A stretch of DNA of 64,000 nucleotides. Source: Antricoccus suffuscus. Its GTDB lineage: Bacteria > Actinomycetota > Actinomycetes > Mycobacteriales > Antricoccaceae. The stretch covers positions 62,001 to 126,000 of the forward strand of contig NZ_PVUE01000008.1 of assembly GCF_003003235.1 (NCBI RefSeq). The letters run 5' to 3'. The position numbers were made by a program, and so were the translations under genes. How positions within the stretch are numbered: the stretch's first letter is position 1; each line of letters starts with the position of its first letter. The notes beneath the pieces were generated by a model. The model did no database searches, was not told where the DNA came from, and was given only the letters and a program-made list of their open reading frames with translations. Positions 18,135 to 56,785 of the stretch are shown piece after piece.

Positions 18135-18552
18135 TACCGGCCGTCGTGACGTGCCCCATCATCGAGTCGACCTGCATGACGAGCGCGATACGACGCGGAT
18201 TTTCGCGTGGCTGACGATATCGAACGGCGTATCGGCGTACCGCTTCGGCGATCTCGGCCGGGTCGCGGGACAGGCGAATCGTCCCCTCGAGTGTCAGCCA
18301 GCTCGGACCGTTCAACTGACAGATCGATGCGCGCGCGGATCCGCCGGCCATCTCGGCGTTCTCGATGTTGCGCACCTTGACTGACGTGACCGAGGTCGTC
18401 ACTCGAGCGGTCTTCGTCGACGGATCGTAGGTGAAGCCGACCGGTACGAGATGCGTCGTACCGTTGGCGCGGGTGGTCGCGAGAGTTGCTAGATGGCGCG
18501 CCCCCAGCTCGTCGAGCACAGATTCAGGGAGGCGCTCGAGGTCGAATTTCAT
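18127..18552 (-). CDS. PPOX-class (F420/FMN-type) split-barrel protein
   Basis: 141 residues with the actinobacterial PPOX pattern: LGARHLATLATTRANGTTHLVPVGFTYDPSTKTARVTTSV, then KVRNIENAEMAG and WLTLEGTIRLSRDPAEIAEAVRRYAVRY. This split beta-barrel family binds F420 or flavin and reduces diverse substrates; related annotations include F420-dependent biliverdin reductase and other small reductases. The ATG at 18552 is chosen because the conserved part starts there; ribosome-site support is weak. Divergent from cobQ with a 52 bp gap. Its stop codon falls in repeat array B. Confidence 0.85.
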   Translation of the reverse strand: MKFDLERLPESVLDELGARHLATLATTRANGTTHLVPVGFTYDPSTKTARVTTSVTSVKVRNIENAEMAGGSARASICQLNGPSWLTLEGTIRLSRDPAEIAEAVRRYAVRYRQPRENPRRIALVMQVDSMMGHVTTAGTA

Positions 18553-18604
18553 GAGCTCAGCATGCCAGAGCGGCGTCGTGACGGCGGCGAATAGGGTGGA
18601 GACC

Positions 18605-20071
18605 ATGTCTCATGCCCCTGGTCGCGGCCTGCTGGTCGCCGGTACGTCGTCGGACGCCGGAAAGTCCCTCGTCACGACGGGTATCTGTCGATTCCTCGCC
18701 CGCCAGGGACTCGCGGTCGCGCCTTTCAAAGCGCAGAATATGTCTAACAACTCGATGGTCTGCGCCGATGGAGCGGAAATCGGCCGCGCCCAATATCTCC
18801 AGGCCCAGGCCGCCCGCGCCGTACCAACCTCCGCAATGAACCCCGTGCTCCTCAAGCCCGGCTCGGACCGTCGGTCGTTCGTCGTGGTGCGTGGTAAGGC
18901 CGACGGCGTACTGGAAGCAGGGGAGTTCGCGAGTGGGCGCGGGCACCTGGCCGCGGCCGCGTTCACGGCGTACCGCGAACTCCAGGAGCAGTACGACGTA
19001 ATCGTGTGTGAGGGTGCCGGTTCGCCGGCCGAAATCAACTTACGGTCCGGTGATTACGTCAACATGGGGCTCGCGCGCGAGTTCGACCTGCCGGTGGTTG
19101 TTGTGGGGGACATCGACCGAGGCGGGGTGTTCGCATCTCTGTATGGAACCGTCGAACTGCTCGAGCCAGCAGACCGCGCACTAGTGAAAGCGTTCATCAT
19201 CAACAAGTTCCGCGGTGACGAATCGTTGCTGCGTCCCGGTCTTGAGCGGTTGTCCGAGCTCACCGGGCGGCCGTTCCTCGGGGTGATCCCGTGGATGCGC
19301 GACATGTGGCTGGACAGCGAAGACACGCTCGAGGTGGGCCGGTGGACCGACGCCGACGGCGGGACCCTACGCGTCGCGGTCGTCCGCTTGCCGCGCATTT
19401 CCAACGCGACCGACGTCGACGCTCTCGCCGCCGAGCCGGGAGTGGCTGTCGCCGTGACCATCGATCCGGCAGCGATCCGGTCGGCGGATCTCGTCGTACT
19501 CCCCGGTTCGCGTGCAACTGTGAGCGATCTGCATTGGCTGCAGGACAGCGGAATCGCCGATGCACTTCGCCAACGGGCCAATCAGGAGCTACCTATTCTT
19601 GGCATCTGCGGTGGTTACCAGATGCTCGCGCGGACACTCGACGACTCGGTCGAGTCCGGTGCCGGCGTGGTCGAGGGGCTGGGTCTGCTGCCGACCGCGG
19701 TGCGCTTCGAAGACGAGAAGACGCTTGGCCGTCCGCAAGGCAGCTGGCGCAGTCACGTCGTTGAGGCATACGAGATTCACCACGGCATTACGAGGACGAT
19801 CGGTGATGGCGGCTCCGCGATCGCTTTTCTAGACGGTATCCAGCTCGGTACGACGTGGGGTACGACGTGGCACGGCACCCTAGAGAACGACGCCTTCCGG
19901 CGCGCCTGGCTGGTCGAGGTAGCCGCGATGGCCGGATCAGAGTGGGAGCCAGCGAGGGACGCACCAGGGTTTGGTGAACGGCGCGAGCGGATGATCGATG
20001 CGCTGGCCGATGCGATTGAGGAAAACCTCGATACGGAGGCGTTGTTGGACATGGTCGGCGTACGACGATGA
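18605..20071 (+). CDS. cobQ: cobyric acid synthase CobQ
   Basis: 488 residues. The N-terminal ATP-binding region reads LLVAGTSSDAGKSLVTTGIC, followed by FKAQNMSNNSMV, a CobQ hallmark. The C-terminal class I glutamine amidotransferase domain has the cysteine in LGICGGYQML and a histidine in YEIHHG. It amidates the b, d, e and g carboxylates of adenosylcobyrinic acid a,c-diamide with glutamine and ATP. The ATG at 18605 follows GGTGGAG. The stop overlaps the cbiD start by 4 bp (ATGA), so the two are translationally coupled. Confidence 0.95.
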   Translation: MSHAPGRGLLVAGTSSDAGKSLVTTGICRFLARQGLAVAPFKAQNMSNNSMVCADGAEIGRAQYLQAQAARAVPTSAMNPVLLKPGSDRRSFVVVRGKADGVLEAGEFASGRGHLAAAAFTAYRELQEQYDVIVCEGAGSPAEINLRSGDYVNMGLAREFDLPVVVVGDIDRGGVFASLYGTVELLEPADRALVKAFIINKFRGDESLLRPGLERLSELTGRPFLGVIPWMRDMWLDSEDTLEVGRWTDADGGTLRVAVVRLPRISNATDVDALAAEPGVAVAVTIDPAAIRSADLVVLPGSRATVSDLHWLQDSGIADALRQRANQELPILGICGGYQMLARTLDDSVESGAGVVEGLGLLPTAVRFEDEKTLGRPQGSWRSHVVEAYEIHHGITRTIGDGGSAIAFLDGIQLGTTWGTTWHGTLENDAFRRAWLVEVAAMAGSEWEPARDAPGFGERRERMIDALADAIEENLDTEALLDMVGVRR

Positions 20072-21150
20072 CGCAGCGCGAGCAGCAGCCCGACGGCAAG
20101 ATGCGTTACGGCTGGACAACCGGGGCATGCGCGACCGCCGCGACAACGGCGGCGTACACGGCCCTTTTGTCGGGGGAGTTTCCAGATCCGGTCATGATCA
20201 CGCTGCCGCGCGGCCAGACGCCGTCATTTGCGCTGACGAAACATGAGCGGGTTGACGAGCAGACGGCCCGCGCGACGATTACGAAGGATGCCGGTGACGA
20301 TCCTGACGTCACGCATGGCGCGCTGGTTACCTCGACGGTGACGCTCATTGGCGGCGACGCAGTCGTTTTTGCGGCCGGTGAGGGTGTCGGCATCGTGACA
20401 AAACCAGGTCTGCCTGTCGCGGTGGGGGAGCCGGCGATCAACCCGGTCCCGCGGAAGATGATGTGTGACCATGTAGCCGAGATTGCCCGCCGTCTAGGAC
20501 ATCCGGGCGGCGTACGCGTCGAGGTCAGCATCGAACACGGTGCGGATCTCGCGCAGCACACCTGGAATCCGAGGCTCGGGATCGTCGGCGGCCTGTCCGT
20601 CCTTGGTACGACGGGGATCGTGGTGCCCTATTCGTGCTCGGCGTGGATCGACTCGATTCGTCGTGGCGTGGATGTCGCGCGCGCTACCGGAGTCACCCAC
20701 GTCGGGGCGGCGACCGGTACGACGTCCGAAGCGACCGTGCGGGCGCTCTACGGGTTGGATGAGGGCGCAATGCTCGACATGGGCGACTTCGCCGGTGCGG
20801 TCCTGAAGTACGTCAAGGGTCATCCCGTGCCACGTCTCACGGTTGCCGGCGGCTTCGCGAAGATGTCGAAACTCGCCGCTGGTCATTTGGACCTGCACTC
20901 TGGACGATCGTCAATCAACCTCGACTTCGTCGCCACCTTCGTCGAGGACGAGGCGCTCGCTGTGCAGATCGCGGCGGCCAACTCCGCACTGCATGCGTGG
21001 GAGATCGCCCGAGATCACGGTGTGCCGCTGGCCGATCGGGTGGCCGCCGCCGCGCTCGAAAAATGCCGGAGTGTCCTGGGCAACGTGCAGGTCGAGGTCG
21101 ACATTGTGGTGATCAACCGGGCCGGCGACATCATTGGTCGTGCGAAGTAA
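20068..21150 (+). CDS. cbiD: cobalt-precorrin-5B C1-methyltransferase-type protein CbiD
   Basis: 360 residues, full family length. It opens MRYGWTTGACATAATTAAY, the CbiD signature, and continues with VTKPGLPVAVGEPAINPVPR and a GTTGIVVPYSCSAWIDSIRR segment. CbiD methylates C1 with S-adenosylmethionine in the anaerobic pathway. Here it is coupled to cobQ in a genome that also has CobG and CobN, which belong to the aerobic route, and no CobF lies in the window. I infer that CbiD takes over C1 methylation (and possibly the deacylation step) in a hybrid pathway. Confidence 0.94.
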   Translation: MTQREQQPDGKMRYGWTTGACATAATTAAYTALLSGEFPDPVMITLPRGQTPSFALTKHERVDEQTARATITKDAGDDPDVTHGALVTSTVTLIGGDAVVFAAGEGVGIVTKPGLPVAVGEPAINPVPRKMMCDHVAEIARRLGHPGGVRVEVSIEHGADLAQHTWNPRLGIVGGLSVLGTTGIVVPYSCSAWIDSIRRGVDVARATGVTHVGAATGTTSEATVRALYGLDEGAMLDMGDFAGAVLKYVKGHPVPRLTVAGGFAKMSKLAAGHLDLHSGRSSINLDFVATFVEDEALAVQIAAANSALHAWEIARDHGVPLADRVAAAALEKCRSVLGNVQVEVDIVVINRAGDIIGRAK

Positions 21151-24824: not shown

Positions 24825-25004
24825 CGCTGACTTTCATGAACTGAAGATAGCGCTGACAGTCACACTGCAGCCTGGCCGAGGCCTTGCTCGCCGCATGCGG
24901 CGCAGGAGCGTCGGCGAGACCATGCCCGTGGCGGTCTCGACCGGTGGCAGCGATGCGTGATCCTTGCCCCGCTCTCGACCGGTTTGCCGTTTGATTGCTA
25001 GTGT

Positions 25005-25115
25005 CGTCGTATCGCGTATTGGTGTGAGGAAGCTGGTGTGATTCCAGCACGGTAGCGCCACTGTGAGCCTTGTCGCACCTGCGGCGGGCAAGTCAGACAC
25101 TTTGCCATCACGCGG
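25005..25115 (+). ncRNA. cobalamin riboswitch upstream of cbtB
   Basis: The leader contains GAGGAAGCTGGTGTGATTCC, then AGCACGGTAGCGCCACTGTGA with the B12 box GCCACTG at 25057-25063, and AAGTCAGAC at 25090-25098, in the order and spacing of adenosylcobalamin-type riboswitches. The cbtB start lies about 45 bp downstream. Binding of cobalamin should reduce expression of the cobalt uptake genes. Exact ends are estimates. Confidence 0.92.
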
Positions 25116-25160
25116 CCACATTTCAACGAGGGACGCATCATCCCCGAAGGAGGCATTCTC

Positions 25161-25401: not shown

Positions 25402-26253
25402 ATGGATAAGTTCATTCTTCGTGGCGTGCTCAGTGGCGCGCTCGGCGGGCTAATTGCTTTTGTTTTCGCCCGTATCTTTGCCGAACCGCAGATCCAGGCA
25501 GCGATCGACTACGAAGAAGGTCGCGGCGCCGCCCAAGAAAAGCTCGACAAGGCGGCCGGCATAGCCGTCAGTGGCCATGAGCACGAGATCTTCAGCCGTA
25601 CAATTCAGGCTAGTCTCGGCATCGGCGTCGGCATGATTCTGCTGGGCGCCGCACTCGGCGCAATTTTCGCTGTCGTGTTCGCCGTATGCCTCGGCCGGGT
25701 CGGCAAGCTGAAGGCCCGCTCGCTGGCACTTCTCCTTGCTGGTGGCGGGTTGGTCGGCTTCTACCTGGTGCCGTTCGTCAAGTACCCCGCCAATCCGCCG
25801 GCGGTCGGCAACGCAGACACGATAGGCGCGCGGACCGGGCTCTATCTGGCCATGGTCGTGTGCTCACTGCTGTTCCTGGTGCTGGCGGTGTTCCTTGGGC
25901 GCAAACTCCAGGCGCGCCTTGGCGCCTGGAGCGCCAGCCTGGTCTCCGGTGCTGCCTTTATCGTCGCTGTCGGCATCGTGATGCTGATCCTGCCTTCACT
26001 TGGCGAGCTGCCTGCCAACGTGGCCGCGTTCGGACATCACGCAACGGAGACTCCGCTGCCGCTGACCGATCCGGATGGCGCGATCGTCTACCCGGGATTC
26101 CCAGCAGATGTACTGGCAGACTTCCGGCTCTATTCGGTCGGCGCGCAAGTGATCATCTGGGGCACGATCGGCCTGGTATTTGCGCCGCTCGCCGACCGGT
26201 TGCTGACTCGACTCGGTACAACCGCCGCGACCAAGGCGACGGCCAACGCCTGA
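25402..26253 (+). CDS. cbtA: CbtA-type cobalt transporter
   Basis: 283 residues with about six hydrophobic segments. It begins FILRGVLSGALGGLIAFVFA and has a His/Glu-containing loop (AVSGHEHEIFSRTIQASLG), then VPFVKYPANPPAVGNADTI, all characteristic of CbtA, the predicted integral membrane component of a B12-regulated cobalt uptake system. It sits in the riboswitch-controlled operon cbtB-cbtA, with an FhuF-like gene 25 bp downstream. Confidence 0.93.
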   Translation: MDKFILRGVLSGALGGLIAFVFARIFAEPQIQAAIDYEEGRGAAQEKLDKAAGIAVSGHEHEIFSRTIQASLGIGVGMILLGAALGAIFAVVFAVCLGRVGKLKARSLALLLAGGGLVGFYLVPFVKYPANPPAVGNADTIGARTGLYLAMVVCSLLFLVLAVFLGRKLQARLGAWSASLVSGAAFIVAVGIVMLILPSLGELPANVAAFGHHATETPLPLTDPDGAIVYPGFPADVLADFRLYSVGAQVIIWGTIGLVFAPLADRLLTRLGTTAATKATANA

Positions 26254-26989: not shown

Positions 26990-29900
26990 CTACTCGTCAT
27001 CCTCCAGGTCGCCTTCGACGTCGAGGTATAGCTGAGCGAGTTGAGACATGAGCTCTGGATCTGGTTGCTCCCAGAGCCCCCGGTCACTCGCCTCGGTGAG
27101 GCGCTCAATGATGCCGCGTAACGCCCACGGATTCGCGTGCCGCAGAAAGTCTTGATTGACCTTGTCCAGCGCGTATGTCTGCGCCAGTTGCTCGTACATC
27201 CAGTCCGTGACGACGCCAGCCGTCGCGTCGTACCCGAAGAGATAGTCGACGGTCGCGGCCAGCTCGAAGGCGCCCTTGTAGCCGTGCCGGCGCATCGCGG
27301 AGATCCAGCGCGGGTTGACGACCCTCGCCCGGAAGACGCGTGCCGTCTCCTCGGTCAGAGACCGCGTGCGGACAGCATCGGACACCGTCGAGTCGCCGAC
27401 GTACGCCGCCGGCGCGGTGCCGGTCAGCGCACGCACGGTCGCGACCATGCCGCCGTGGTACTGGAAGTAGTCATCGCTGTCAGCGATGTCATGCTCGCGG
27501 GTGTCGGTGTTCTTAGCCGCGACCGCGATCCGCCGGTAGTTGGCTTCCATATCGTCACGTGCGGGGACGCCGTCCATGTCGCGGCCATACGCGAATCCGC
27601 CCCAGACCGAGTAGACCTCGGCGAGATCCTTGTCGTCACGCCAGTTGCCGGACTCGATCAGCGGCAGGATGCCCGCGCCGTACGACCCGGGCTTGGACCC
27701 GAAGATGCGCGTGGTCGCCCGACGCTGGTCGCCGTGCTGGCTCAAGTCGGCCGCCGTATGAGCCTTGACGAAGTTCAGCTCATCAGGCTCGTCGAGGTCA
27801 GCGACCAGCCGGACCGCATCGTCGAGCATCGTGATCACATGCGGGAACGCGTCACGGAAGAAGCCCGAGATCCGCACCGTGACATCGATCCGGGGCCGAT
27901 CGAGCTCCTCGAGCGGTACGACGCGCAGACCGGTGACCCGACGTGATGCCTCGTCCCACTCAGGAATGACGCCCATGAGAGCGAGCACCTCGGCGATGTC
28001 GTCGCCCGACGTACGCATCGCTGACGTGCCCCAGACGGAGAGCCCGACGTTTCGGGGATAGTCGCCGTTGTCGGTCTTGTAGCGCTCAACAAGCGATTCG
28101 GCCATGGCGGCCCCGGTGTCGTAGGCAAGGCGAGACGGGATCGCCTTGGGATCGACGGAGTAGAAGTTGCGCCCGGTGGGCAGCACGTTGACCAGGCCGC
28201 GCAGCGGCGACCCCGAGGGGCCGGCCGGAATGTATCCGCCGTCAAGGGCGTGGAGTATCGCCGGGATCTCGCCGCGGGTTGCATCGAGCCGCGGGATGAC
28301 CTCGGTGGCAGCGAAGTGCAACGACGTACTCACGTCGGGATTGGCCTCCCCGAGTACGTCGAGGACGATCTCGTCGACCCGCTCGTGCGCCCAGCCCGCG
28401 GCATCAAGGGCGGTCACGAGCGCCTTGGCCTTCTCCTCGGCGGCGTCGACATCGGCGAGCTCACTGTCGTTTTCCTTCAGCCCCAGGGCAACTCGCAGTC
28501 CGGGGACGGCTTGGACTGTCCCACCCCACACCTGGTTGGCGCGAAGAATCGCCAGCACGAGGTTGATCCGGCCCTCAGCGGCCGGCGCTTCGCCGAGGAT
28601 GTGCAGCCCGTCGCGGATCTGTACGTCCTTGATCTCGCAGAGCCAACCGTCGACGTGCATGACGAACTGGTCGAACTCCTCGTCGTCCGGGCGCTCGGAA
28701 AGCCCGAGATCGTGGTCCATCTTCGCGGACTGGATGAGCGTCCAGATCTCCGCTCGCATTGCCGGCGCCTTGGCGGGGTCCATCGCCGAGACGTTGCCGT
28801 ACTCGTCGAGAAGCTGCTCCAGGCGGGCGATGTCGCCGTACGACTCGGCGCGCGCCATGGGCGGGATGAGGTGGTCGACGATCGTCGCGTGGGCGCGTCG
28901 CTTTGCCTGAGTGCCTTCGCCGGGATCATTGATGAGGAACGGATAGATCAGCGGCATATTGCCGATTGCAGCGTCGGCAGCACATTCCGCCGACATGCCG
29001 ACGTTCTTGCCGGGTAGCCATTCCATGTTGCCGTGTTTGCCCATGTGTACGACGGCGTGGGCGCCGAACGACTTCTCCAGCCAGCGGTATACAGCCAGGT
29101 AATGGTGCGACGGAGGCAGATCCGGATCATGGTAGATCGCGATCGGGTTCTCGCCGAACCCGCGTGGCGGCTGGACGATCACCAGGACGTTGCCCGCTTG
29201 CAGGGTGGCAACGACGATCTCGCCGTCGGGATCGCGCGAGGTATCGACGAACAACTCCCCGGGGGCTTCGCCCCATTTCTCGACCACGCTGTCGACCAGC
29301 TGCTTCGGCAGCTCAGCGAGCCAAGCACGATAGTCGGCGGCCCTGATCCGCACTGGCTGCCCGGACAGCTGCTCGTTGGTGAGCCATTCTTCGTCTTGCC
29401 CGCCGGCTTCGATGAGCGCGTGGATGAGCGCATTTCCGGCAGTCGTATCGGGCGACTCGTCCTCAATAGGCTCAAGGGGAGCGAGCCCGGGGAGCGCGTC
29501 TTTGGTGCCGACCGGGCCGACGTCGTAGCCCGCCTCATGCATCGCGCGCAGGAGCCGGACGACGGAGACTGGCGTGTCGAGCCCGACCGCGTTACCGATA
29601 CGGGAGTGTTTGGTCGGATAGGCAGACAGCACGACCGCGATCTTGCGATCGGCGGGCGGGATGTGCCGCAACCTTGCATGCGCGACCGCGATCCCGGCGA
29701 CTCGAGCGCACCGCTCAGCATCCGGAACGTAGTGCGGCAGTCCGTCCGCGTCGGTCTCCTTGAACGAGAAGGGCACGGTGATCAGGCGGCCGTCAAACTC
29801 GGGTACGGCGATTTGGGTTGCGACGTCGAGCGGTGACAGTCCCTCGTCGGAGGTAGCCCAGGTCTCGCGGTCCCAGGTGAGGCACAGCCCTTGCAGCATA

Positions 29901-30649
29901 GGGATATCGAGCGCCGCCAAGGCCCGCACATCCCAGGCCTCGTCATCCTGACCGGCGCCCGCCGTACCGGGCTTTGTACCGCCCGCGGCGAGGACCGTAG
30001 TGACGAGCGCATCGAGAGTTCCCAGATGAGTCAGGAGATCGTGCGGTGCATCACGCAGGGATGCGCAGAAGATCGGGATACCAACCCCGCCAGCGTCATC
30101 GATAGCGTCGGCAAGCCCATGGACGTAGTCGGTGTTGGCGGCGGTGTACTGCGCTCGGTAGAAGAGAATTCCAACGCGTGGCCGGACCGCCCCGTCCGTG
30201 GCCGGGCCGGCCGGTGCCGGGCGATCGAGCTCGCCCCAGTTGGGCATCCGCAGGGCCGGCTCGAATCCTTCACCCGTGAGCAGGATCGTGTCGCAGAGAA
30301 ACGCGTGCAGCTGCCGGAGGTTGTCGGCACCGCCCTCCGCGAGGTAGACGTGTGCGTCGGCTGCGACTCCCATCGGCACGGACGAGATCTCCATCAAGGA
30401 CGCGTTGGGTGTCTGTTCGCCACCGAGTACGACGAGCGGCTTGCCGGTCTGGCGCATCCTGTCGAACTCCTCGCGCAATGACTCGGGCGAGCCGAGGATG
30501 CGCGCAACGATCAGGTCGGCACCGTCACAGAGCGAGCCCATCTCGTCCAGCGTGATCTTGGTTGGATTGGCATAGACGTAGTCGGCCTGGCTGGCCCGGG
30601 CCGAGAGTAGGTCGGTGTCTGAGGTCGATACCAGCGCGATGCGGGGCAT
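26990..30649 (-). CDS. cobN: cobaltochelatase large subunit CobN
   Basis: 1219 residues, the full size of CobN. Recognisable stretches include VHMGKHGNMEWLPGKNVGMS, the strong CobN/ChlH/BchH-family segment, NLVLAILRANQVWGGTVQ and GRNFYSVDPKAIPSRLAYDTG. CobN binds hydrogenobyrinic acid a,c-diamide and inserts Co2+ together with AAA+ and VWA partner subunits; the ChlI-ChlD-type protein at 45625 is the probable partner here. The ATG at 30649 has AAGGAG upstream. A cobalamin riboswitch lies in its leader. It is divergent from cobG and convergent with the FhuF-like gene. Confidence 0.96.
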   Translation of the reverse strand: MPRIALVSTSDTDLLSARASQADYVYANPTKITLDEMGSLCDGADLIVARILGSPESLREEFDRMRQTGKPLVVLGGEQTPNASLMEISSVPMGVAADAHVYLAEGGADNLRQLHAFLCDTILLTGEGFEPALRMPNWGELDRPAPAGPATDGAVRPRVGILFYRAQYTAANTDYVHGLADAIDDAGGVGIPIFCASLRDAPHDLLTHLGTLDALVTTVLAAGGTKPGTAGAGQDDEAWDVRALAALDIPMLQGLCLTWDRETWATSDEGLSPLDVATQIAVPEFDGRLITVPFSFKETDADGLPHYVPDAERCARVAGIAVAHARLRHIPPADRKIAVVLSAYPTKHSRIGNAVGLDTPVSVVRLLRAMHEAGYDVGPVGTKDALPGLAPLEPIEDESPDTTAGNALIHALIEAGGQDEEWLTNEQLSGQPVRIRAADYRAWLAELPKQLVDSVVEKWGEAPGELFVDTSRDPDGEIVVATLQAGNVLVIVQPPRGFGENPIAIYHDPDLPPSHHYLAVYRWLEKSFGAHAVVHMGKHGNMEWLPGKNVGMSAECAADAAIGNMPLIYPFLINDPGEGTQAKRRAHATIVDHLIPPMARAESYGDIARLEQLLDEYGNVSAMDPAKAPAMRAEIWTLIQSAKMDHDLGLSERPDDEEFDQFVMHVDGWLCEIKDVQIRDGLHILGEAPAAEGRINLVLAILRANQVWGGTVQAVPGLRVALGLKENDSELADVDAAEEKAKALVTALDAAGWAHERVDEIVLDVLGEANPDVSTSLHFAATEVIPRLDATRGEIPAILHALDGGYIPAGPSGSPLRGLVNVLPTGRNFYSVDPKAIPSRLAYDTGAAMAESLVERYKTDNGDYPRNVGLSVWGTSAMRTSGDDIAEVLALMGVIPEWDEASRRVTGLRVVPLEELDRPRIDVTVRISGFFRDAFPHVITMLDDAVRLVADLDEPDELNFVKAHTAADLSQHGDQRRATTRIFGSKPGSYGAGILPLIESGNWRDDKDLAEVYSVWGGFAYGRDMDGVPARDDMEANYRRIAVAAKNTDTREHDIADSDDYFQYHGGMVATVRALTGTAPAAYVGDSTVSDAVRTRSLTEETARVFRARVVNPRWISAMRRHGYKGAFELAATVDYLFGYDATAGVVTDWMYEQLAQTYALDKVNQDFLRHANPWALRGIIERLTEASDRGLWEQPDPELMSQLAQLYLDVEGDLEDDE

Positions 30650-30694
30650 GAGACGAGCTCCTTATCGAGGTCCGCGCCTCGAGTCGTAGATGCC

Positions 30695-30800
30695 ATCGCG
30701 GTTAGTTCCTGACTTGCGCGGCAGCTGGTGCGTGCCGCGTTCACAGTGGCGGGACCGTCCCGGAGTTGCACCGGGTTCCTATTCCATCGATGGGTTGCCG
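30695..30800 (-). ncRNA. cobalamin riboswitch upstream of cobN
   Basis: Read on the minus strand: GGAACCCGGTGCAACTCC, then GGGACGGTCCCGCCACTGTGA with the B12 box (complement of 30744-30750), then AAGTCAGGAAC. Order and spacing match the cobalamin riboswitch core. The cobN start is about 45 bp downstream. The element lies between the divergent cobN and cobG starts. Exact ends are estimates. Confidence 0.92.
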
Positions 30801-30839
30801 GCTCAGCCTATCGGGCGACAATCCCACTACGATGGGCCG

Positions 30840-31985
30840 GTGACATTAGCTGACCACGCCGAGCCAGACCGCTGCCCCGGGCTGTTGCGTCCGTTCGTCG
30901 CGGCGGACGGCGCGCTCATCAGGCTGCGGGTGCCGGGCGGGCAGACAACGATCGCGGGATTGGTTGCGCTGTCACGACTTTCGACGGCGTACGGCGATGG
31001 CCACATTGCGATCACGTCGCGGGCGAACCTGCAGGTCCGCGGCTTGACCCTGACGGATGGAGAGGTCGACGAGCGACTTGCCCAGGGCGTTATCGACGCG
31101 GGCTACCTGCCGTACCCCACGCACGAGCGTGTCCGCAACATCGTCGCCTCGCCACTGACCGGTCTCCTTGGCGGGTTCGCCGATATCCGTCCTCTTGTGG
31201 CGCAGGTTGATCGGTTGCTCGCCTCCGAGCCGATCCTCGCCGACCTTCCTGGTCGTTTTCTTTTCGCTTTGGACGACGGACGTGGCGACATGGAGGCATT
31301 TACCTCGGATTTGTCCTACCGGTTGGTCGATGGGACTCGAGGAATTCTGCGTGCCGGCCGCCAAGGGCTGGGCGAGCACCTGGCATTGACCGAGGCCGCG
31401 CCGGTCATTGTCGAGCGAGCGAAGCGATTCATGCAGGCGCGTCATTCGCAGTGGCGCGTCTTTGACCTGCCAGATGGGGGAGCCCAGATCGTCCAATCGC
31501 GGGTTGTGGCGTCTGCTGTTCGGCCTACGCCACGCGCGCTGGGCACACTCAAGCAGGACGATAGCCGGATCGCGCTCTATGTTCACGCGCCACTCGGCCT
31601 GCTCACCGCTGACCACCTTGGCGCCCTCGGGCAGGTTGCGGGTGACGGATCGCTCGTCATCACGCCCGCGCGGGACATCGTCGTACCGGGGATCGACCGT
31701 GATGCGGCGGGCGATTCCCTGGCCCGGCTCAGTGCGGCGGGTCTTGTCGCCGACGCACAGTCGCCGTGGAGCCGGGTCTTTGCCTGCGCCGGAGCACCCG
31801 GCTGCGTAAGGGCCGCGTTCGACACGCGTAGAGTCGCCGAGCGGATCGTCGAGGCAGGTGGTCTAGCCCCAGACGAGATTGTGCACATCAGCGCCTGCGA
31901 TCGCCGTTGCGGCCAGCCCGCCGTACCGCATCGTGTAGTTAGCTCACCCGATGGCTTCGACGCCGTCCCAACGAATGGATCTTGA
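30840..31985 (+). CDS. cobG: precorrin-3B synthase CobG
   Basis: 381 residues of the nitrite/sulfite reductase-like family. Two ferredoxin-like parts carry ITSRANLQVRGL and, at the C-terminus, FACAGAPGCVRAAFDTRRVA and HISACDRRCGQP, giving cysteines for a [4Fe-4S] cluster. CobG hydroxylates precorrin-3A at C20 with O2 and forms the lactone needed for ring contraction, so it marks the oxygen-dependent pathway. The GTG start at 30840 begins the conserved region. It is divergent from cobN and heads the cobG-cobH-cobIJ operon. Confidence 0.92.
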   Translation: MTLADHAEPDRCPGLLRPFVAADGALIRLRVPGGQTTIAGLVALSRLSTAYGDGHIAITSRANLQVRGLTLTDGEVDERLAQGVIDAGYLPYPTHERVRNIVASPLTGLLGGFADIRPLVAQVDRLLASEPILADLPGRFLFALDDGRGDMEAFTSDLSYRLVDGTRGILRAGRQGLGEHLALTEAAPVIVERAKRFMQARHSQWRVFDLPDGGAQIVQSRVVASAVRPTPRALGTLKQDDSRIALYVHAPLGLLTADHLGALGQVAGDGSLVITPARDIVVPGIDRDAAGDSLARLSAAGLVADAQSPWSRVFACAGAPGCVRAAFDTRRVAERIVEAGGLAPDEIVHISACDRRCGQPAVPHRVVSSPDGFDAVPTNGS

Positions 31986-31986
31986 C

Positions 31987-32637
31987 GTGACCACGCCGCC
32001 GCCGAGCGTCTACGACTACGAGCGCGACGGATCGCAGATATATGAGCGATCTTTCGCGATGATCAGAGCCGAAGCGGACCTGACGCAGATTCCGCACGAC
32101 GCGCGGGCCGTCGTCGTGCGGATGATTCACGCGTGCGGCCAGGTCGACCTACCGGCAGACGTCGTCGTACACGATCAGCTGGTCGCGGCGGCCCGTGCGG
32201 CTCTCGAGTCCGGAGCGCCGATCTTTACCGACGCAATGATGATTGCGTCCGGGATCACGCGCAAACGGCTGCCCGCAGACAACAACGTGGTGTGCCTGTT
32301 GCGCGACCCGCGAGTTGCAGAGCTCGCGAGCACATGGGGCACAACGCGTTCGGCCGCGGCGGTCTCGTTGTGGGGAGACCGGCTCGAAGGCGCCGTGGTG
32401 GCGATCGGTAATGCGCCGACGGCGTTGTTCCACCTGCTTGAGTTGATCGCCGCAGGAGGACCTCGCCCGGCCGCGATTGTCGGCGTACCAGTCGGTTTCG
32501 TCGGGTCGGCCGAGTCCAAGCTGGCGCTGACGGCCTTTACGCCTGCGATTCCGCACCTCGTCGTACACGGTCGTCGTGGCGGTTCGGCGCTCGCCGTGTC
32601 GGCGATCAATGCGCTGGCGCAGGAACGCGAGATCTGA
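31987..32637 (+). CDS. cobH: precorrin-8X methylmutase CobH
   Basis: 216 residues. It starts with YDYERDGSQIYERSFAMIRA and contains RMIHACGQ with His48, equivalent to the catalytic histidine of CobH, then ITRKRLPADNNVVCLL and AIGNAPTALFHLLE, both highly conserved. The enzyme moves the methyl group from C11 to C12 to give hydrogenobyrinate. The GTG at 31987, one base after the cobG stop, gives the usual family length; ATG at 31975 or 31951 would overlap cobG. The stop overlaps cobIJ by one base. Confidence 0.93.
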   Translation: MTTPPPSVYDYERDGSQIYERSFAMIRAEADLTQIPHDARAVVVRMIHACGQVDLPADVVVHDQLVAAARAALESGAPIFTDAMMIASGITRKRLPADNNVVCLLRDPRVAELASTWGTTRSAAAVSLWGDRLEGAVVAIGNAPTALFHLLELIAAGGPRPAAIVGVPVGFVGSAESKLALTAFTPAIPHLVVHGRRGGSALAVSAINALAQEREI

Positions 32638-34154
32638 TGACAAGCCCAGGACGGCTCTACGGGATTGGCGTCGGGCCAGGCGATCCGGAGCTCGTCACCC
32701 TCAAAGCGGCCCGCCTCATTGGCGCGGCGGACGTGATCGCCTACCACTCGGGCCCAATGCGCAAGTCGATCGCGCGAGATATCGTCTCGTCACTGGTCCC
32801 CGACGGTGCATTGGAAGAACTGCTGGCATATCCGGTGACAACCGGCTCAAGCCCTCATCCTGGCGGTTACTACGGCGCTATCAATGACTTTTACGACGAG
32901 TCCGCCGATCGGCTCGCGGTGCATCTTGAAGCCGGGCGGACGGTCGTCGTACTCGCCGAAGGGGACCCGCTCTTCTACGGATCCTTTATGTATCTGCACG
33001 ACCGGCTGTCACCACGCTTTGAGTGCGAGGTGATTCCGGGCGTAACCTCTGTGTCGGCATCGACCGCGGCCGCCGCCGTACCGCTCGTTCGACACGAGGA
33101 CGTGCTGACCGTGTTGCCTGGCACGCTGCCGAAACCCGAGCTCGCCCGGCGGCTGGCGGACACCGAGGGTGCGGTGATCATGAAGCTGGGCCGGACGTTT
33201 CCCGCTGTCGTGGAGGCGTTGCGCGAGTCGGGTCGACTCGGCGATGCGGTGTATGTCGAGCGGGCGAGCAAGTCGCAGCAGCGAGTGCTGCCGGTGACCG
33301 AGGTTGATTCAGCGTCGGTCCCGTACTTCTCGATGATCGTCGTACCTGGTATCGACAAACGCGCCGACTCCGCCGGACGCGCTGCGGCGCCGGAAGTCTC
33401 GGTGCCCGCGGCGAGCGCCGGACCGGCGGAGGTCGTCATCGTCGGGCTCGGTCCTGGTCCGGACAGATGGCTGACACCGGAGGCCTCGGACCTGCTCGCC
33501 GAGGTGTCGCACGTCGTGGGTTATGCGCCGTACGTCAACCGGGTGCCGCAGCGTCCTGGCCTCACCAGGCATGCCTCTGGCAACACCGTCGAGCTTGACC
33601 GGGCCCGTCACGCGCTTGACCTCGCGGCCGCGGGGGAGAAGGTGGCTGTCGTATCGGGTGGGGATGCAGGGGTCTTTGGGATGGCGGCCGCTATTTTCGA
33701 GGCGGCTGCTGACGAGAGGTACGCCGGCGTACCGATTCGGGTTGTTCCCGGATTGACTGCAGCGCAGGCCGTCGCGGCGCGTGCGGGTGCGCCGCTCGGT
33801 GCGGACTTCGCAGTCATGTCCCTGTCTGATCGACTCAAGCCGTGGCCTGTGATCGAGCGTCGGCTCTTGGCGATCGCCGAGTCTGACCTCGTTCTCGCGA
33901 TCTACAATCCACGGTCGAAGTCGCGGACCGAACAGGTTGCGATGGCGAAGGCCGCGCTGCTGTCACGAAGGTCCGCCGACGTACCGGTGGTCATCGGCCG
34001 GGATGTCGGCCGATCCGAGGAGTCGCTGACGGTCACCACCTTGGGCGAACTCGACCCGGAGCAGATCGATATGAAGTGCCTGCTCATCGTCGGCGCGAGT
34101 TCAACTCAAGTCACCCCCGCCGGCCAAGTCTGGACTCCCCGCTCAGTGACCTAG
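32637..34154 (+). CDS. cobIJ: CobI-CobJ fusion: precorrin-2 C20- and precorrin-3B C17-methyltransferase
   Basis: 505 residues with two tetrapyrrole methylase domains. The first (about 1-240) begins LYGIGVGPGDPELVTLKAAR and contains VVVLAEGDPLFYGSFMYLHD, typical of CobI. After an Ala/Pro-rich linker near residue 250, the second begins VVIVGLGPGPDRWLTPEAS and has VVSGGDAGVFGMAA and YNPRSKSRTEQ, typical of CobJ. They methylate C20 of precorrin-2 and C17 of precorrin-3B with ring contraction. The fusion is common in actinobacteria. It overlaps cobH and is followed immediately by repeat array C. Confidence 0.95.
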   Translation: MTSPGRLYGIGVGPGDPELVTLKAARLIGAADVIAYHSGPMRKSIARDIVSSLVPDGALEELLAYPVTTGSSPHPGGYYGAINDFYDESADRLAVHLEAGRTVVVLAEGDPLFYGSFMYLHDRLSPRFECEVIPGVTSVSASTAAAAVPLVRHEDVLTVLPGTLPKPELARRLADTEGAVIMKLGRTFPAVVEALRESGRLGDAVYVERASKSQQRVLPVTEVDSASVPYFSMIVVPGIDKRADSAGRAAAPEVSVPAASAGPAEVVIVGLGPGPDRWLTPEASDLLAEVSHVVGYAPYVNRVPQRPGLTRHASGNTVELDRARHALDLAAAGEKVAVVSGGDAGVFGMAAAIFEAAADERYAGVPIRVVPGLTAAQAVAARAGAPLGADFAVMSLSDRLKPWPVIERRLLAIAESDLVLAIYNPRSKSRTEQVAMAKAALLSRRSADVPVVIGRDVGRSEESLTVTTLGELDPEQIDMKCLLIVGASSTQVTPAGQVWTPRSVT

Positions 34155-43296: not shown

Positions 43297-44049
43297 CTAT
43301 GGGGCCGGCCGGCCGCGGTCACGCTTCGAGTAGAGATGAGATTCGGCAAAGCTGACCGATTCGAGCGCGTGACCCACGAAGATCAGCGCCGCTTGGCGGA
43401 TTCCGGCCGCTTCGACGTGGTCGGCGATCGTCTCAAGTGTGCCGCGGAGTATCTGCTGGTCCGGCTGCTCGGCGTTCGCAACGACTATCGCGGGGCACCC
43501 TGCGCCGTACGGTCCAGCCAGCTCGGCCGCGAGGCGCCTGATATGCCGGATCGCCAGGTGCAGAGCCAAAGTAGCTCGCGATTGCGCCAGGTAGGCAAGC
43601 GATTCCGTCTCCGGCATCTTCGTTGAGTCGGCCTGCGCGCGGGTGAGGATGACGGTCTGCGCGACTTCCGGGACGGTGAGCTCGCGGCCGAGTAGCGCCG
43701 CCGCAGCGGCATACGCTGGTACGCCGGGAGTCACGTCCCACGGCACTCCCGCGGCATCCAGCCGCCGGGTTTGCTCGGCCAAGGCAGAGTAGAGCGATGG
43801 GTCGCCACTGCACAGTCGGGCAACGTCATGGCCGGCCGCGTGTCCCTGTACGGCGTGCGCGGTGATCTGGTCGAGGTTGAGGTGCTGAGTGTCGATCAGT
43901 GTCGCGCCAGGAGGGCAGTGCTCAAGTACGTCGTCGGTGACATAAGTGCCGGCATACAGGCATACCTGCGAAGCGCCGAGGAGCGCGGTGGCACGTAGCG
44001 TTAGTAGATCCGCGGCTCCGGGGCCGGCGCCGATGAAGTGGACTGTCAT
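43297..44049 (-). CDS. cobM: precorrin-4 C11-methyltransferase CobM
   Basis: 250 residues of the tetrapyrrole methylase family. It begins VHFIGAGPGAADLLTLRA and contains YAGTYVTDDVLEHCPPGA, ARLCSGDPSLYSALAEQ and TPGVPAYAAAAALLGREL, all diagnostic of CobM/CbiF. It methylates C11 of precorrin-4 with S-adenosylmethionine, giving precorrin-5. The ATG at 44049 overlaps the cobL stop by 4 bp (ATGA), so the two are coupled; a longer upstream frame lies inside cobL. No ribosome site is needed given the coupling. Confidence 0.95.
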   Translation of the reverse strand: MTVHFIGAGPGAADLLTLRATALLGASQVCLYAGTYVTDDVLEHCPPGATLIDTQHLNLDQITAHAVQGHAAGHDVARLCSGDPSLYSALAEQTRRLDAAGVPWDVTPGVPAYAAAAALLGRELTVPEVAQTVILTRAQADSTKMPETESLAYLAQSRATLALHLAIRHIRRLAAELAGPYGAGCPAIVVANAEQPDQQILRGTLETIADHVEAAGIRQAALIFVGHALESVSFAESHLYSKRDRGRPAP

Positions 44050-45347
44050 GAGTTTCGGGCCGGTCTCGTCGCGCTCCATTGGGTCACCGCGCGGGACGGG
44101 GCCCATCCGCTGAACGAGCCGATGGGTTGCAGGTATTCAACCGATACACGCACGAGTTCTCCACCGTACTTCGCCTGGGCCGCATGTAAAAGCGCCTCGG
44201 TCTGCACGGTGACGGCGTGTACGACGAGGCGCCCTCTTGCGCCGAGTGCCGACCAGCAGGCATCCAGTAGACCCTCGGCGGTCGCGCCGCCCCCGATGAA
44301 GATCGCCTGTGGCGTAGGCAAACCGACAAACGCGTCCGGCGCGTCGCCGGTGACGACATGGAGGTCCGGTACGCCGAGTCGGTCGGCGTTTCGGCGGATC
44401 GCGGCCGCACGGTCCGGGGACTTCTCGATCGCAATGGCCTGTGCACGCGCGTCGGCGCGCATCCATTCGATGGCAATCGATCCGGCGCCGGCACCGACGT
44501 CCCACAGTAGGTGGCCCGGCGACGGGGCGAGGTGTGCCAGTGCCGACGCACGGATTTCCCGCTTGGTGAGCTGCCCGTCATGCTCGTAAGCTGTGTCGGG
44601 TAGGCCCGCGATCGTTGGCAGCACGGCGATGTCGGGGTCGGCCTGGCACTCGCAGCACACGACGTTGAGCCGCGGAAACTCGGGTACGTCGCTGCCGGAC
44701 CACTGCCGCGCCGTACCTGACAGCGCCGATTCGGTGGGTCCGCCGAGGTTGCCTAGCACCGTCAGGGTCGTCGGCCCGTAGCCGGCGTCGGTCAGCAGGC
44801 GCGCGATCTCACGCGGGGTGGCCTCGTCGCTGGACAGTACGACGAGGCGCCGGCCGGGTGCCAGTGCGCGCAATACCAGCGATGTGCGTCGACCGACGAC
44901 CGTGATCACGTCGGAGGACTCCGCTGACCAGCCCAGCCGGGCTCGCGCCAGCGCGTCGGAGGAAACGGTGGGGATGATGCGGATATTGCCCGAACCGAAG
45001 ACCGAGATCAGCGTCGTGCCGATTCCGGAGCGCAGCGGGTCGCCGGAGGCCAATACGACGCGACGCTTGTGCTTGTGCTGGTCGAGCGTCTCGCGCAGCG
45101 CCGGGAGCAATGGCCGCGGCCACGCGACCAGCTCCTGACCATCGGTGGCGGTGATTGCCGCCAACTGCCGCGGGCTGCCGAAGATGACCTGGCCGTCGTG
45201 GATGATTTCGCGGACGTGCTCGCTGAGGCCCTCGATGCCGTCGGCGCCGATGCCGACGACCTGGATGAGGCCACCACGTTGCGTGCGGCCGGGATCGAAG
45301 GTCGATCGGGGCGTATCTGGCGTTGGTTCACGATCCGGCGTACTCAC
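44046..45347 (-). CDS. cobL: precorrin-6Y C5,15-methyltransferase (decarboxylating) CobL
   Basis: 433 residues: an N-terminal CbiE-like methylase (IQVVGIGADGIEGLSEHV, LASGDPLRSGIGTTL) and a C-terminal CbiT-like Rossmann methyltransferase (LTKREIRASALAHLAPSPGH, LWDVGAGAGSIAIEWMRADA). Together they methylate C5 and C15 and decarboxylate the C12 acetate side chain. The start is a GTG at 45347. It is divergent from the chlID operon, whose riboswitch leader starts about 50 bp away, and is coupled to cobM. Confidence 0.95.
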   Translation of the reverse strand: MSTPDREPTPDTPRSTFDPGRTQRGGLIQVVGIGADGIEGLSEHVREIIHDGQVIFGSPRQLAAITATDGQELVAWPRPLLPALRETLDQHKHKRRVVLASGDPLRSGIGTTLISVFGSGNIRIIPTVSSDALARARLGWSAESSDVITVVGRRTSLVLRALAPGRRLVVLSSDEATPREIARLLTDAGYGPTTLTVLGNLGGPTESALSGTARQWSGSDVPEFPRLNVVCCECQADPDIAVLPTIAGLPDTAYEHDGQLTKREIRASALAHLAPSPGHLLWDVGAGAGSIAIEWMRADARAQAIAIEKSPDRAAAIRRNADRLGVPDLHVVTGDAPDAFVGLPTPQAIFIGGGATAEGLLDACWSALGARGRLVVHAVTVQTEALLHAAQAKYGGELVRVSVEYLQPIGSFSGWAPSRAVTQWSATRPARNS

Positions 45348-45560: not shown

Positions 45561-45624
45561 CCGGTGCCAAATTTTCCGTTGCATGATGCGGGCGTGGATA
45601 CCCGCAGGCTGGAGTAGTGCACAC

Positions 45625-47751
45625 GTGCGAACGTTTCCGTTTTCGGCCGTCGTCGGGTCCGACGACATGGCTCTCGCGCTCATCCTCACCGCCGTCTCGC
45701 CCGAGGTTGGCGGCGTTTTGGTGCGGGGTGAGAAGGGTACGGCAAAATCGACCATGGTCCGCGCCCTCGCCTCGGTTCTGCCCGAACAGACCGTCGTCAT
45801 GGGGTGCCGATTCGGTTGCGACCCCGATGACCCGGACCCCAGTTGCCCAGATGGCCCGCACGCCGGGGCCCGCGCGCACACCCGGTCTGCCCGGCTCGTG
45901 GAGCTACCGGTCGGTGCCACCGAGGATCGGGTGATCGGCTCGCTGGACCTGCAGCGTGCGCTCGGCGAAGGAGTCACGGCGTACGAGCCGGGACTGTTGG
46001 CGGCGGCACACCGCGGCCTGCTGTACGTCGACGAGGTCAACCTGTTGCACGACCATCTTGTGGACCTGTTGTTGGATGCGGCGGCCATGGGCCGTTCGAC
46101 CGTCGAACGTGAAGGGGTCTCGGTGTCGCACGGTGCGAAGTTTGTGCTCGTCGGGACGATGAACCCTGAAGAAGGCGAGCTGCGGCCGCAACTGCTTGAC
46201 CGGTTTGGCCTGACCGTAGAGATCAAGGCGCCGCGCGATCCGAAGCTGCGCACCGAGGTAGTACGGCGCCGGCTTGCCTTCGACGGCAACCCCAACTCGT
46301 TTGCCGCAAAATACGATGATCAGGAGGAGACGCTGCGTAAGCGCATCAGCGATGCGCAGCTGCGGTTGCCCACGGTCGAACTCGGCAACGAGGCGCTGGA
46401 AAAGATTGCCGAAGTGTGCGCGGCCTTCGACGTCGACGGGATGCGCGCGGACATCGTGACTGCACGTGCGGCGGTCGCGCACGCTGCGTGGAACGGCCGC
46501 ACGAGCGTCGACAAGGCGGACATCCGGGCCGCGGCCAGGCTCGCTCTGCCACACCGCCGCCGCCGCAATCCCTTTGACGCTCCGGGTCTGGACGAGGATC
46601 TGCTTGACCAGATCCTTGAAGACCAGCCCGAACCTGAGCCGCCAAATGATCCGGACGACCGTGGTTCCGACGACAGCTCTCCCGACGACCAGAGCCTCGA
46701 TGGTTCGCAGTCTCAGTCGCAGTCGCAACAGGATTCCGGCCAGCCAGACTCTGCTCCTCGCAACCAGTCGGCCCCGCAGCCGCGGGACCACGGACCGGCC
46801 GATACTCCGGCAGATGCGTCCGACGAGTCGCCGTCCGACGGACCCGCGCCAGGCCTGCACGTGGCCGGCGTACAGGAGCCTTACCGCACCAAGTTCTTCG
46901 CCGCGTCTGGAATTGGCGGCGGCGAAGCCGGTAGGCGGTCGCGGGCGATCACCTCGATCGGCCGGACGGTTGGCGCCGCACCGGGCGGCGAGACCAGCGG
47001 CGGTGTCCACCTTCCGGCGACGATCCGCGCCGCGGCGCCGCATCAGGTAGCGCGCGGGCGTACTGCGCGGTCGGGTTCGACGTCGCGCCGCGAGTACGAC
47101 GGCCCCGAGGCGCTGCGCATCCAGGCCTCCGACGTACGCCGGTCCATCACAGAAGGTCGCGAGTCGAATCTGGTGTTGTTCTGCGTAGACGCATCCGGAT
47201 CGATGGCCGCCCGCAAACGCATGGAGAGCGTGAAAACCGCCGTGCTGTCACTTCTACTTGATGCCTATCAGCGCCGCGACAAGGTCGGCCTGGTGACGTT
47301 CCGTGGTCGTGAGGCGGTGCTAGCACTACCGCCGACGTCGTCGGTGGATACCGCCGCGCGCCGGCTCGAAGAGTTGCCGACCGGTGGTCGCACACCACTG
47401 GCCGAGGGGCTGATGATGGCCGAACGCACGCTGCGCCTGGAGCGTTTGCGTGACCCGAAGCGACGCGCGCTGCTGATTGTGGTCACCGACGGGCGCGCTA
47501 CCGCTGGCGCCGATGCGCTCGCCTACTCACGCCGAGCAGCGGAATACCTCGCTGCCACTGGTGTCGACGCGATCGTGGTGGACTGCGAGACCGGCCGGTT
47601 CCGGATGGGTCTAGCCGGCTCGCTGGCGCAGTCACTGGACGCGCAGTACGTCGCCCTCGACGAGGTGGGCGCGTCACAGCTCGTCTCGGTCGCCGGCGGA
47701 AAGTCCTTGCACTCCGAGGACACGGGCCAGACTCCGGGACGGGCCGCCTGA
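45625..47751 (+). CDS. ChlI-ChlD-type AAA+/VWA chelatase subunit (probable CobN partner)
   Basis: 708 residues. The N-terminal AAA+ part starts FPFSAVVGSDDMALALIL with Walker A in VRGEKGTAKST and Walker B in GLLYVDEVNLL, and TMNPEEGELRPQLLDRFGL. A disordered linker (about 355-430) rich in Asp, Pro, Ser and Gln includes an SQSQSQSQQ run. The C-terminal VWA domain has the MIDAS motif VDASGSMAARK. In actinobacteria this gene precedes cobO and cobB, and it probably replaces CobS/CobT in the cobaltochelatase with CobN. GTG at 45625 fits the family start and a GGAG site; ATG at 45583 is an alternative. Confidence 0.9.
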   Translation: MRTFPFSAVVGSDDMALALILTAVSPEVGGVLVRGEKGTAKSTMVRALASVLPEQTVVMGCRFGCDPDDPDPSCPDGPHAGARAHTRSARLVELPVGATEDRVIGSLDLQRALGEGVTAYEPGLLAAAHRGLLYVDEVNLLHDHLVDLLLDAAAMGRSTVEREGVSVSHGAKFVLVGTMNPEEGELRPQLLDRFGLTVEIKAPRDPKLRTEVVRRRLAFDGNPNSFAAKYDDQEETLRKRISDAQLRLPTVELGNEALEKIAEVCAAFDVDGMRADIVTARAAVAHAAWNGRTSVDKADIRAAARLALPHRRRRNPFDAPGLDEDLLDQILEDQPEPEPPNDPDDRGSDDSSPDDQSLDGSQSQSQSQQDSGQPDSAPRNQSAPQPRDHGPADTPADASDESPSDGPAPGLHVAGVQEPYRTKFFAASGIGGGEAGRRSRAITSIGRTVGAAPGGETSGGVHLPATIRAAAPHQVARGRTARSGSTSRREYDGPEALRIQASDVRRSITEGRESNLVLFCVDASGSMAARKRMESVKTAVLSLLLDAYQRRDKVGLVTFRGREAVLALPPTSSVDTAARRLEELPTGGRTPLAEGLMMAERTLRLERLRDPKRRALLIVVTDGRATAGADALAYSRRAAEYLAATGVDAIVVDCETGRFRMGLAGSLAQSLDAQYVALDEVGASQLVSVAGGKSLHSEDTGQTPGRAA

Positions 47752-48365
47752 TGCCAAAGGGAGAGATCGCCGTCACGCCGAACGATGGACTGAGCACCCG
47801 GCAGCGGCGCAACAGACCGCTGATCATGGTGCACACTGGCGATGGCAAGGGTAAGTCGACGGCTGCATTCGGGATGGCGCTGCGCGCCTGGAACCAGGGC
47901 TGGTCGGTTGGCGTATTTCAGTTCGTGAAGTCTGCCAAGTGGCGGATCGGTGAGCAGACCGCGCTGGAGACTCTCGCTGAGCTACACGCGAAAGACGGCG
48001 TCGGCGGGCCGATCGAGTGGCACAAGATGGGATCGGGCTGGTCCTGGTCTCGCCGGCAAGGCAGTGCCGAGGACCACGCCGCCGAGGCCGCCGAGGGCTG
48101 GCAGGAGATCAAGCGCCGGCTCGCGGCCGACACGCATCGTCTCTACGTGCTCGACGAGTTCACATATCCCATCAACTGGGGCTGGGTAGATATCGATGAC
48201 GTCGTACAGACGCTTCGTGATCGCCCCGGCAACCAGCACGTGGTGATCACCGGGCGTCGGGCGGACCCCAAACTGCTCGAGGTCGCCAATCTCGTGACCG
48301 AGATGACGAAGGTGAAACACCCGATGGATGAGGGACAGAAGGGCCAGCGCGGCATCGAATGGTGA
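47751..48365 (+). CDS. cobO: cob(I)yrinic acid a,c-diamide adenosyltransferase CobO
   Basis: 204 residues. The P-loop is VHTGDGKGKSTAAFGMAL, followed by VGVFQFVKSAKWRIGE and YVLDEFTYPINWGWVDI, the CobA/CobO (BtuR) signatures. It transfers the adenosyl group from ATP to Co(I) of the corrin. The ATG overlaps the chelatase stop by one base, and the stop overlaps the cobB-cobC start by 7 bp, so the genes are tightly coupled. It requires prior reduction of Co(II), for which no dedicated CobR gene lies in this operon. Confidence 0.95.
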   Translation: MPKGEIAVTPNDGLSTRQRRNRPLIMVHTGDGKGKSTAAFGMALRAWNQGWSVGVFQFVKSAKWRIGEQTALETLAELHAKDGVGGPIEWHKMGSGWSWSRRQGSAEDHAAEAAEGWQEIKRRLAADTHRLYVLDEFTYPINWGWVDIDDVVQTLRDRPGNQHVVITGRRADPKLLEVANLVTEMTKVKHPMDEGQKGQRGIEW

Positions 48366-56722: not shown

Positions 56723-56785
56723 GACGATCAAAGAGCCTTTGGTGTAGTCGCGGAAGGCGAGTCTTTCACAACAGAAGGAAGAATA

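Follow-up and report, generated by a model that had tools for sequence, protein, structure and literature searches.

Probable replacement of CobF by CbiD in the oxygen-dependent cobalamin pathway of Antricoccus suffuscus

CobF and CbiD belong to different protein families and occupy the same place in the two routes to cobalamin. In the aerobic route CobF (precorrin-6A synthase, deacetylating) adds the C1 methyl group and releases the extruded C20 piece in a single step, and in the anaerobic route CbiG takes the extruded piece off first and CbiD (cobalt-precorrin-5B C1-methyltransferase) methylates afterwards, as described in the accessible part of PMC7242693. A crossing of the two has been suspected before: a 2015 survey scored 'CobF or CbiD' as alternatives in its aerobic rule (PMC4403557, Table 2, as excerpted), and a 2013 paper, in the passages available, proposed for Methylobacterium pCMU01 and Streptomyces that CbiD may take over from CobF, with reference to a Streptomyces paper making the same proposal, and stated that the role in the aerobic route remained to be investigated (PMC3621897). 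The excerpted table of PMC11596459 marks Pseudomonas denitrificans with CobG and CbiD, not CobF, and the open-licence literature searched, in the portions accessible, held no experiment in which CbiD was given a metal-free substrate. Here we describe a further example, the cbiD gene in a 64,000-nt stretch of Antricoccus suffuscus DNA (contig NZ_PVUE01000008.1, assembly GCF_003003235.1), hereafter the window, in whose numbering coordinates are given.

A first-pass annotation of the window had proposed that CbiD carries out the C1 methylation on a metal-free ring, and comparison with other genomes leaves this as the best reading, strengthened by an in-situ exchange of the two genes and by their exclusion among relatives. 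With a probability which we put at about 0.85, the window CbiD would be a non-orthologous substitute for CobF within the oxygen-dependent pathway. CobG, CobJ and CobM would make the metal-free ring, CbiD would move the methyl group of S-adenosylmethionine to C1 to give precorrin-6A for CobK, and CobN would insert cobalt later. Removal of the acetyl group, the least certain step, might be brought about by CbiD during methylation (as by CobF), occur spontaneously or proceed via an unrecognised hydrolase. The two genes at the centre of this argument are:

18431..20071, + strand, cobQ, cobyric acid synthase (TIGR00313, 442 bits), overlapping cbiD by 4 bases
20068..21150, + strand, cbiD, a single open frame of 360 aa, the predicted C1-methyltransferase standing in for CobF

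The gene is intact and, as the first-pass annotation had claimed, coupled to cobQ, the cbiD ATG and the cobQ stop sharing four bases (ATGA). The protein scores 391.9 bits against TIGR00312 (cut-off 200), covering profile positions 1-346 of 346, 471.1 bits against NF000849 (cut-off 348) and 292.6 bits against Pfam CbiD (PF01888). These scores, together with the G+C content at codon positions 1/2/3 (69/50/76%), ruled out a chance or antisense open reading frame (ORF) at this position.

We searched the genome to which the window belongs (4.68 Mb, 43 contigs, 97.77% complete; labelled G000, other G labels being sampled genomes and L labels fetched loci) with the CobF profile TIGR02434 and found no CobF in the whole assembly (cut-off 195.8), so that the absence of cobF noted earlier for the window holds for the genome-wide search as well. 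The two matches at E <= 0.01, both below the cut-off, were the CobI domain of the CobIJ fusion (53.3 bits) and a CobA/CysG-like protein (19 bits); with both weak matches identified in this way, the possibility that a diverged tetrapyrrole methylase conceals a CobF was rejected. The CobF profile cross-matches other tetrapyrrole methylases, not CbiD.

All four other genomes of the same family that were searched carry CobF and lack CbiD, and in three of them (G170, G171 and G172, the last with a cobF gene scoring 252.4 bits against the CobF profile) cobF lies directly behind cobQ with the same 4-base overlap as cbiD in the window; in the fourth, G169, no cobQ was present within the 20 kb read around cobF. 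Because cobF holds this overlap in three of the four, cbiD seems to have taken its place, and replacement of cobF by cbiD at the cobQ junction is the simplest reading.

Among 81 relatives (G000 included) CbiD was above cut-off in 28, CobF in 34 and both in none. Ten of the 28 CbiD genomes carry CbiDs of the anaerobic-type branch (see below), and in seven of these the short locus also matches CbiG; without the ten, 18 CbiD and 34 CobF genomes remain among 71 with no overlap against 8.6 expected, a chance of 6e-7 which assumes independent genomes and is made too strong by their relatedness. CobG was directly seen for seven of the 18 (the window, L186, L187, L190, L191, L194 and L199), and the other 11, of which short stretches were read, show aerobic-type neighbours. 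The exchange is found within single genera: g115 has CbiD in G221 and G228 and CobF in G242, g110 has CbiD in G202 and G209 and CobF in G182 and G194, and g132 has CbiD in G241 and CobF in G227 and G234. The exchange recurs in a second slot, the interval between cobK and cobM, which clusters of the Streptomyces type fill with CbiD, G097 and G206 with CobF.

Across the phylum, represented by an even sample of 119 genomes, CbiD was present in 27 and CobF above cut-off in nine, with G039 just under it (186.7 bits). Counting CobG by E-value alone was abandoned, as 64 of the 119 genomes then match, most of them like longer NirA-like reductases which match further into the profile; true CobG was kept, by judgement, in the 11 genomes whose match starts at the CobG N-terminus (partial or in pieces in G104, G060 and G111). 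Eight of these have CobF, and the three without it (G000, G023 and G108) all have CbiD (Fisher p 0.024). A reciprocal hybrid, with CobF, CbiG and CobN and without true CobG or CbiD, was observed in G039 (L121, L101), where the CobN and CbiG-CobJ frames were checked, and in G117 (L122, L123).

The assignment of the window to the aerobic route in the first-pass annotation was borne out: CobG, CobN, CobIJ, CobM, CobL, CobH and CobK are all present, CobG and CobM scoring just below their cut-offs. The remaining features are:

24979..25122, + strand, cobalamin riboswitch upstream of cbtA (RF00174, 34.4 bits)
25402..26253, + strand, cbtA, probable cobalt transporter (Pfam CbtA, 258.6 bits)
26990..30649, - strand, cobN, late cobalt chelatase large subunit (TIGR02257, 1105 bits, cut-off 822)
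30683..30835, - strand, cobalamin riboswitch immediately upstream of cobN (RF00174, 52 bits)
30690..31985, + strand, ORF of cobG, oxygen-dependent precorrin-3B synthase (TIGR02435, 221.5 bits, cut-off 234.8)
31951..32637, + strand, cobH (NF006136, 331.2 bits)
32637..34154, + strand, cobIJ fusion (NF004647 and TIGR01466, above cut-off)
43297..44106, - strand, cobM (TIGR01465, 255.9 bits, slightly below the cut-off of 259.65)
44046..45347, - strand, cobL with CbiE and CbiT domains (TIGR02467 and TIGR02469, above cut-off)
45583..47751, + strand, ChlI/ChlD-like fusion (ChlID), probable CobN partner (Mg_chelatase and VWA domains)
47751..48365, + strand, cobO (Pfam, 205.7 bits)
48359..50884, + strand, cobB-cobC fusion without a CbiG_C/CobE module
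50885..51964, + strand, CobA/CysG-like uroporphyrinogen methyltransferase with an NAD-binding domain
55940..56731, - strand, cobK (Pfam CbiJ, 240.3 bits)

CobT, CobS, CobU and CobD are also encoded, and the late chelatase CobN is accompanied by an AAA/VWA partner (ChlID). The CobG match, slightly below its curated cut-off, covers profile positions 3-381 of 388 in a frame adjoining cobH, and the translation retains the cysteine pattern CAGAPGC and CDRRC, which we take to be the siroheme/Fe4S4 site motif. Because the CobG profile begins at residue 60, the true cobG start probably lies downstream of the ORF start, at about 30840 or later; the minus-strand riboswitch at 30683-30835 extends over the opening codons of the longest cobG ORF.

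Two further genes stand within this set. Beside cbtA, positions 26279-26989 encode a FhuF-like protein whose C-terminus bears a 2Fe-2S motif (20.7 bits, cut-off 20.5). Similar proteins adjoin cbtA or cobF in L188, L189 and L197, and the protein might have a part in reducing cobalt for cobalamin synthesis. The second gene, at positions 34324-35241 with cobIJ on one side and an enoyl-CoA hydratase gene on the other, encodes a 305-aa protein with a weak endonuclease-like match (20.3 bits, cut-off 38.2); its weak relatives (47-67 bits) are encoded close to cobK or cobJ in L190, L191 and L194.

Over its full length the window CbiD belongs to the same family as the anaerobic-pathway CbiD (TIGR00312, PF01888), and its residues 8-193 align with the solved relative 1SR8 (E 4e-14); to our knowledge there is no ligand-bound CbiD. 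Unlike the anaerobic-pathway enzyme it keeps company with CobG and CobN in a genome where CbiG_C was not found. It is 50-66% identical to 102 CbiDs of a broad group and 35-42% identical to 20 of the anaerobic-type branch. Twenty alignment columns separate these two, 17 by an opposing letter and three by being mostly gapped in the anaerobic-type branch, and the window CbiD has its own group's residue at 19 of them, the sole departure being N350. It also keeps 113 of the 118 columns whose conservation among the 102 relatives of its broad group reaches 95%, departing at M12, A98, V288, S306 and N350. A comparison of CbiD phylogeny with the presence of CobG and CobN, suggested by the first-pass annotation, was made for CobG: in a quick tree of 123 sequences the window CbiD falls within 63 actinobacterial CbiDs (97% in the Shimodaira-Hasegawa-like approximate likelihood ratio test, SH-aLRT), 45 with CobG seen nearby and 18 with no CobG context assigned, but CobG context does not form a single clade. 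An 'aerobic CbiD' clade therefore holds only partly, as CbiG-neighbouring, mostly alphaproteobacterial CbiDs share the broad group.

Named genomes place the window in wide company. Among 80 named CbiD loci, with markers counted at 30 bits or above to references from the window or from the other loci, CobG lies in the fetched stretch of 41 (with CobN too in 33), full CbiG occurs in 16, none of which has CobG in the stretch, and neither is present in 23, several of them short contigs; CobF was in none of the 80 stretches fetched. The loci with CobG and CbiD include Streptomyces, Streptosporangium, Saccharomonospora, Actinomadura, Blastococcus, Pleomorphomonas and Acidisoma. Plasmid pAB510d of Azospirillum sp. 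B510 has annotated cobN and cobG alongside a CbiD gene, and a plasmid of Caballeronia sp. M1242 bears a CobG, CobN and CbiD cluster by comparison in this analysis, so that Streptomyces, Streptosporangium, Azospirillum and Caballeronia share such clusters with the window. In Pseudomonas aeruginosa, too, cbiD belongs to the aerobic cob operon. The rarity implied by the first-pass annotation did not stand, clusters with CobG and CbiD being common in named genomes and 'CobF or CbiD' being an already published rule.

Several observations weigh against a replacement of CobF by CbiD or narrow it. CobF is also present in 12 of the 50 named CbiD genomes searched for CobF and CbiG_C (11 of 41 with CobG in the locus), and in the phylum sample both are present in one of the 27 genomes with CbiD, namely G104, which is among the eight with CobG and CobF; strict exclusion everywhere was therefore rejected, and the pattern seen among relatives is not universal. 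For ten of the 12 dual genomes (L124-L133) the stretch of about 3.7 kb fetched around CobF contains no other cobalamin reference gene of at least 25 bits, and the same holds for 17 kb around the G104 CobF (L120). The branch of the window CbiD is long (1.05), and according to a warning from the tree program such rows are placed with uncertainty. The CobG label switches 18 times on the CbiD tree, and the CbiDs of the same broad group beside full CbiG without CobG in the stretch (16 of the 80 loci) are mostly alphaproteobacterial; for these reasons the subfamily cannot be tied to metal-free rings. One such locus with CbiG, L033, has a CbiX-like frame. This Rhizobium cluster with CbiG and CbiD (L033:19255-20781, - strand) shows the CbiX/CfbA-like frame beside cobH (80.5 bits, cut-off 120), and its CbiD groups broadly with those of CobG context. 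A separate observation concerns L196 (G216:C43), where a cluster with CbiD and CbiG-CobJ has a genuine CobN (1168 bits) and ChlID and its stretch lacks CobG; this hints at a possible action of CbiG and CbiD on metal-free rings in some actinobacteria.

Three other explanations were considered, each of them improbable. The foremost of these, which we still regard as very unlikely, is that CobF or another C1-methyltransferase was missed, through an assembly gap or an unrecognised family, and that CbiD is redundant: with 43 contigs the assembly reaches 97.77% completeness, some named actinobacteria have both genes (the 12 of 50 above), and PMC8192938, in the part available, lists Rv2067c as the predicted substitute for CobF in M. 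tuberculosis, but the place behind cobQ that holds cobF in three of four family genomes is intact here and holds cbiD, and none of the 81 relatives carries both. Slightly less probable again is an early insertion of cobalt by a CbiX-like protein, with CbiD acting on its usual cobalt substrate in a partly anaerobic pathway. The genome does contain one frame with two CbiX domains (G000:C1:430378-430965; 56.2 and 42.2 bits, cut-off 22). It sits, however, among nirB, cysG-like and hemD-like genes, an operon as expected for siroheme synthesis, on a contig other than that of the cob cluster, and the early-chelatase reading was set aside on this ground. CobG, CobN and ChlID are present, whilst CbiG_C gave no match in the genome at E <= 0.01, the N-terminal and middle domains of CbiG not having been searched. 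An early chelatase with a CbiG set, which the first-pass annotation had named as evidence to the contrary, was thus not found, in a search that did not include cbiK. The least probable explanation is a pathway that no longer works, with CbiD as a passenger; the long branch would fit such decay, but the retention of 113 of 118 strongly conserved columns, the open frames with family matches of the other pathway genes listed and the two cobalamin riboswitches all speak against it.

If CbiD does replace CobF, the fate of the acetyl group becomes the central question. The CbiG_C domain is the part common to CbiG and CobE, and it occurs in 44 of the 50 named genomes (35 of 41 with CobG, one a 30-bit fragment). 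It is present in 32 of 38 CbiD genomes without CobF as against one of seven with CobG and CobF and no CbiD (Fisher p 0.0007, a post hoc value dominated by Streptomyces). The 38 comprise G000, G023, G108 and 35 named genomes, 30 of the latter with CobG in the fetched stretch; not counted were the 12 dual carriers, of which ten have CbiG_C, and three named alphaproteobacteria whose stretch lacks CobG, all of which have CbiG_C. This pattern favours a two-enzyme scheme of a CobE-like deacylase and CbiD. The exceptions, without CbiG_C and CobF, are the window genome, G108, Streptosporangium minutum, Saccharomonospora piscinae and Conexibacter sp., and also G159, a 1.8-Mb metagenome-assembled genome which may be incomplete.

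In Blastococcus (L040), G023 and G104 cobB and cobC are separated by a CbiG_C module, which the cobB-cobC fusion of the window lacks. The profile used for the fetched clusters matched 45 loci above 20 bits, nine being its own seeds, and it found no CbiG_C in the cluster stretches of the four CobF-bearing family members (whole genomes were not searched). Since CbiG_C was found neither in the window genome nor in these stretches, it appears that CbiD in this lineage entered a background of CobF type that lacked CobE. The unexpected part of the finding is that this genome has no known enzyme for acetyl removal, CobF, CbiG_C and CobE all not being found.

Where these three are not found, we tentatively suggest that CbiD alone might deacetylate and methylate C1 of metal-free precorrin-5, in which case an unrelated family would have taken over CobF's complete two-part reaction at the same genomic spot. 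A variant compatible with the replacement of CobF, and one that we hold to be just as conceivable, is that CbiD only methylates and that a required CobE/CbiG-like deacylase was missed. The prevalence of CbiG_C among CbiD genomes without CobF (32 of 38 against one of seven) points this way, as does the published aerobic rule, which in its available form contains 'CbiGF', read here as CbiG and CbiF (PMC4403557); the five genomes named above as lacking CbiG_C and CobF (the window genome, G108, S. minutum, S. piscinae and Conexibacter sp.) argue the other way.

The window differs from the cases described earlier in two respects. M. extorquens CM4 also has a chromosomal cobF (PMC3621897, in the passages available), whereas the search of the window genome yielded no cobF and cbiD occupies its slot; and whilst most named genomes with CobG and CbiD also have the CbiG_C/CobE domain, none was found here. 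The substitution is thus recurrent and already suspected, the present case being a well-supported further example in which the lack of a recognisable deacetylase deserves assay. The family offers a natural experiment, with related clusters carrying at the same junction CbiD in one and CobF in three, and no CobE in the stretches read, which would allow two matters to be tested, the need for cobalt in the CbiD substrate and the identity of the acetyl remover in CbiD-type aerobic pathways. Annotation rules that demand CobF, such as variant P2 in the accessible part of PMC6593275, would score Antricoccus suffuscus as unable to make B12.

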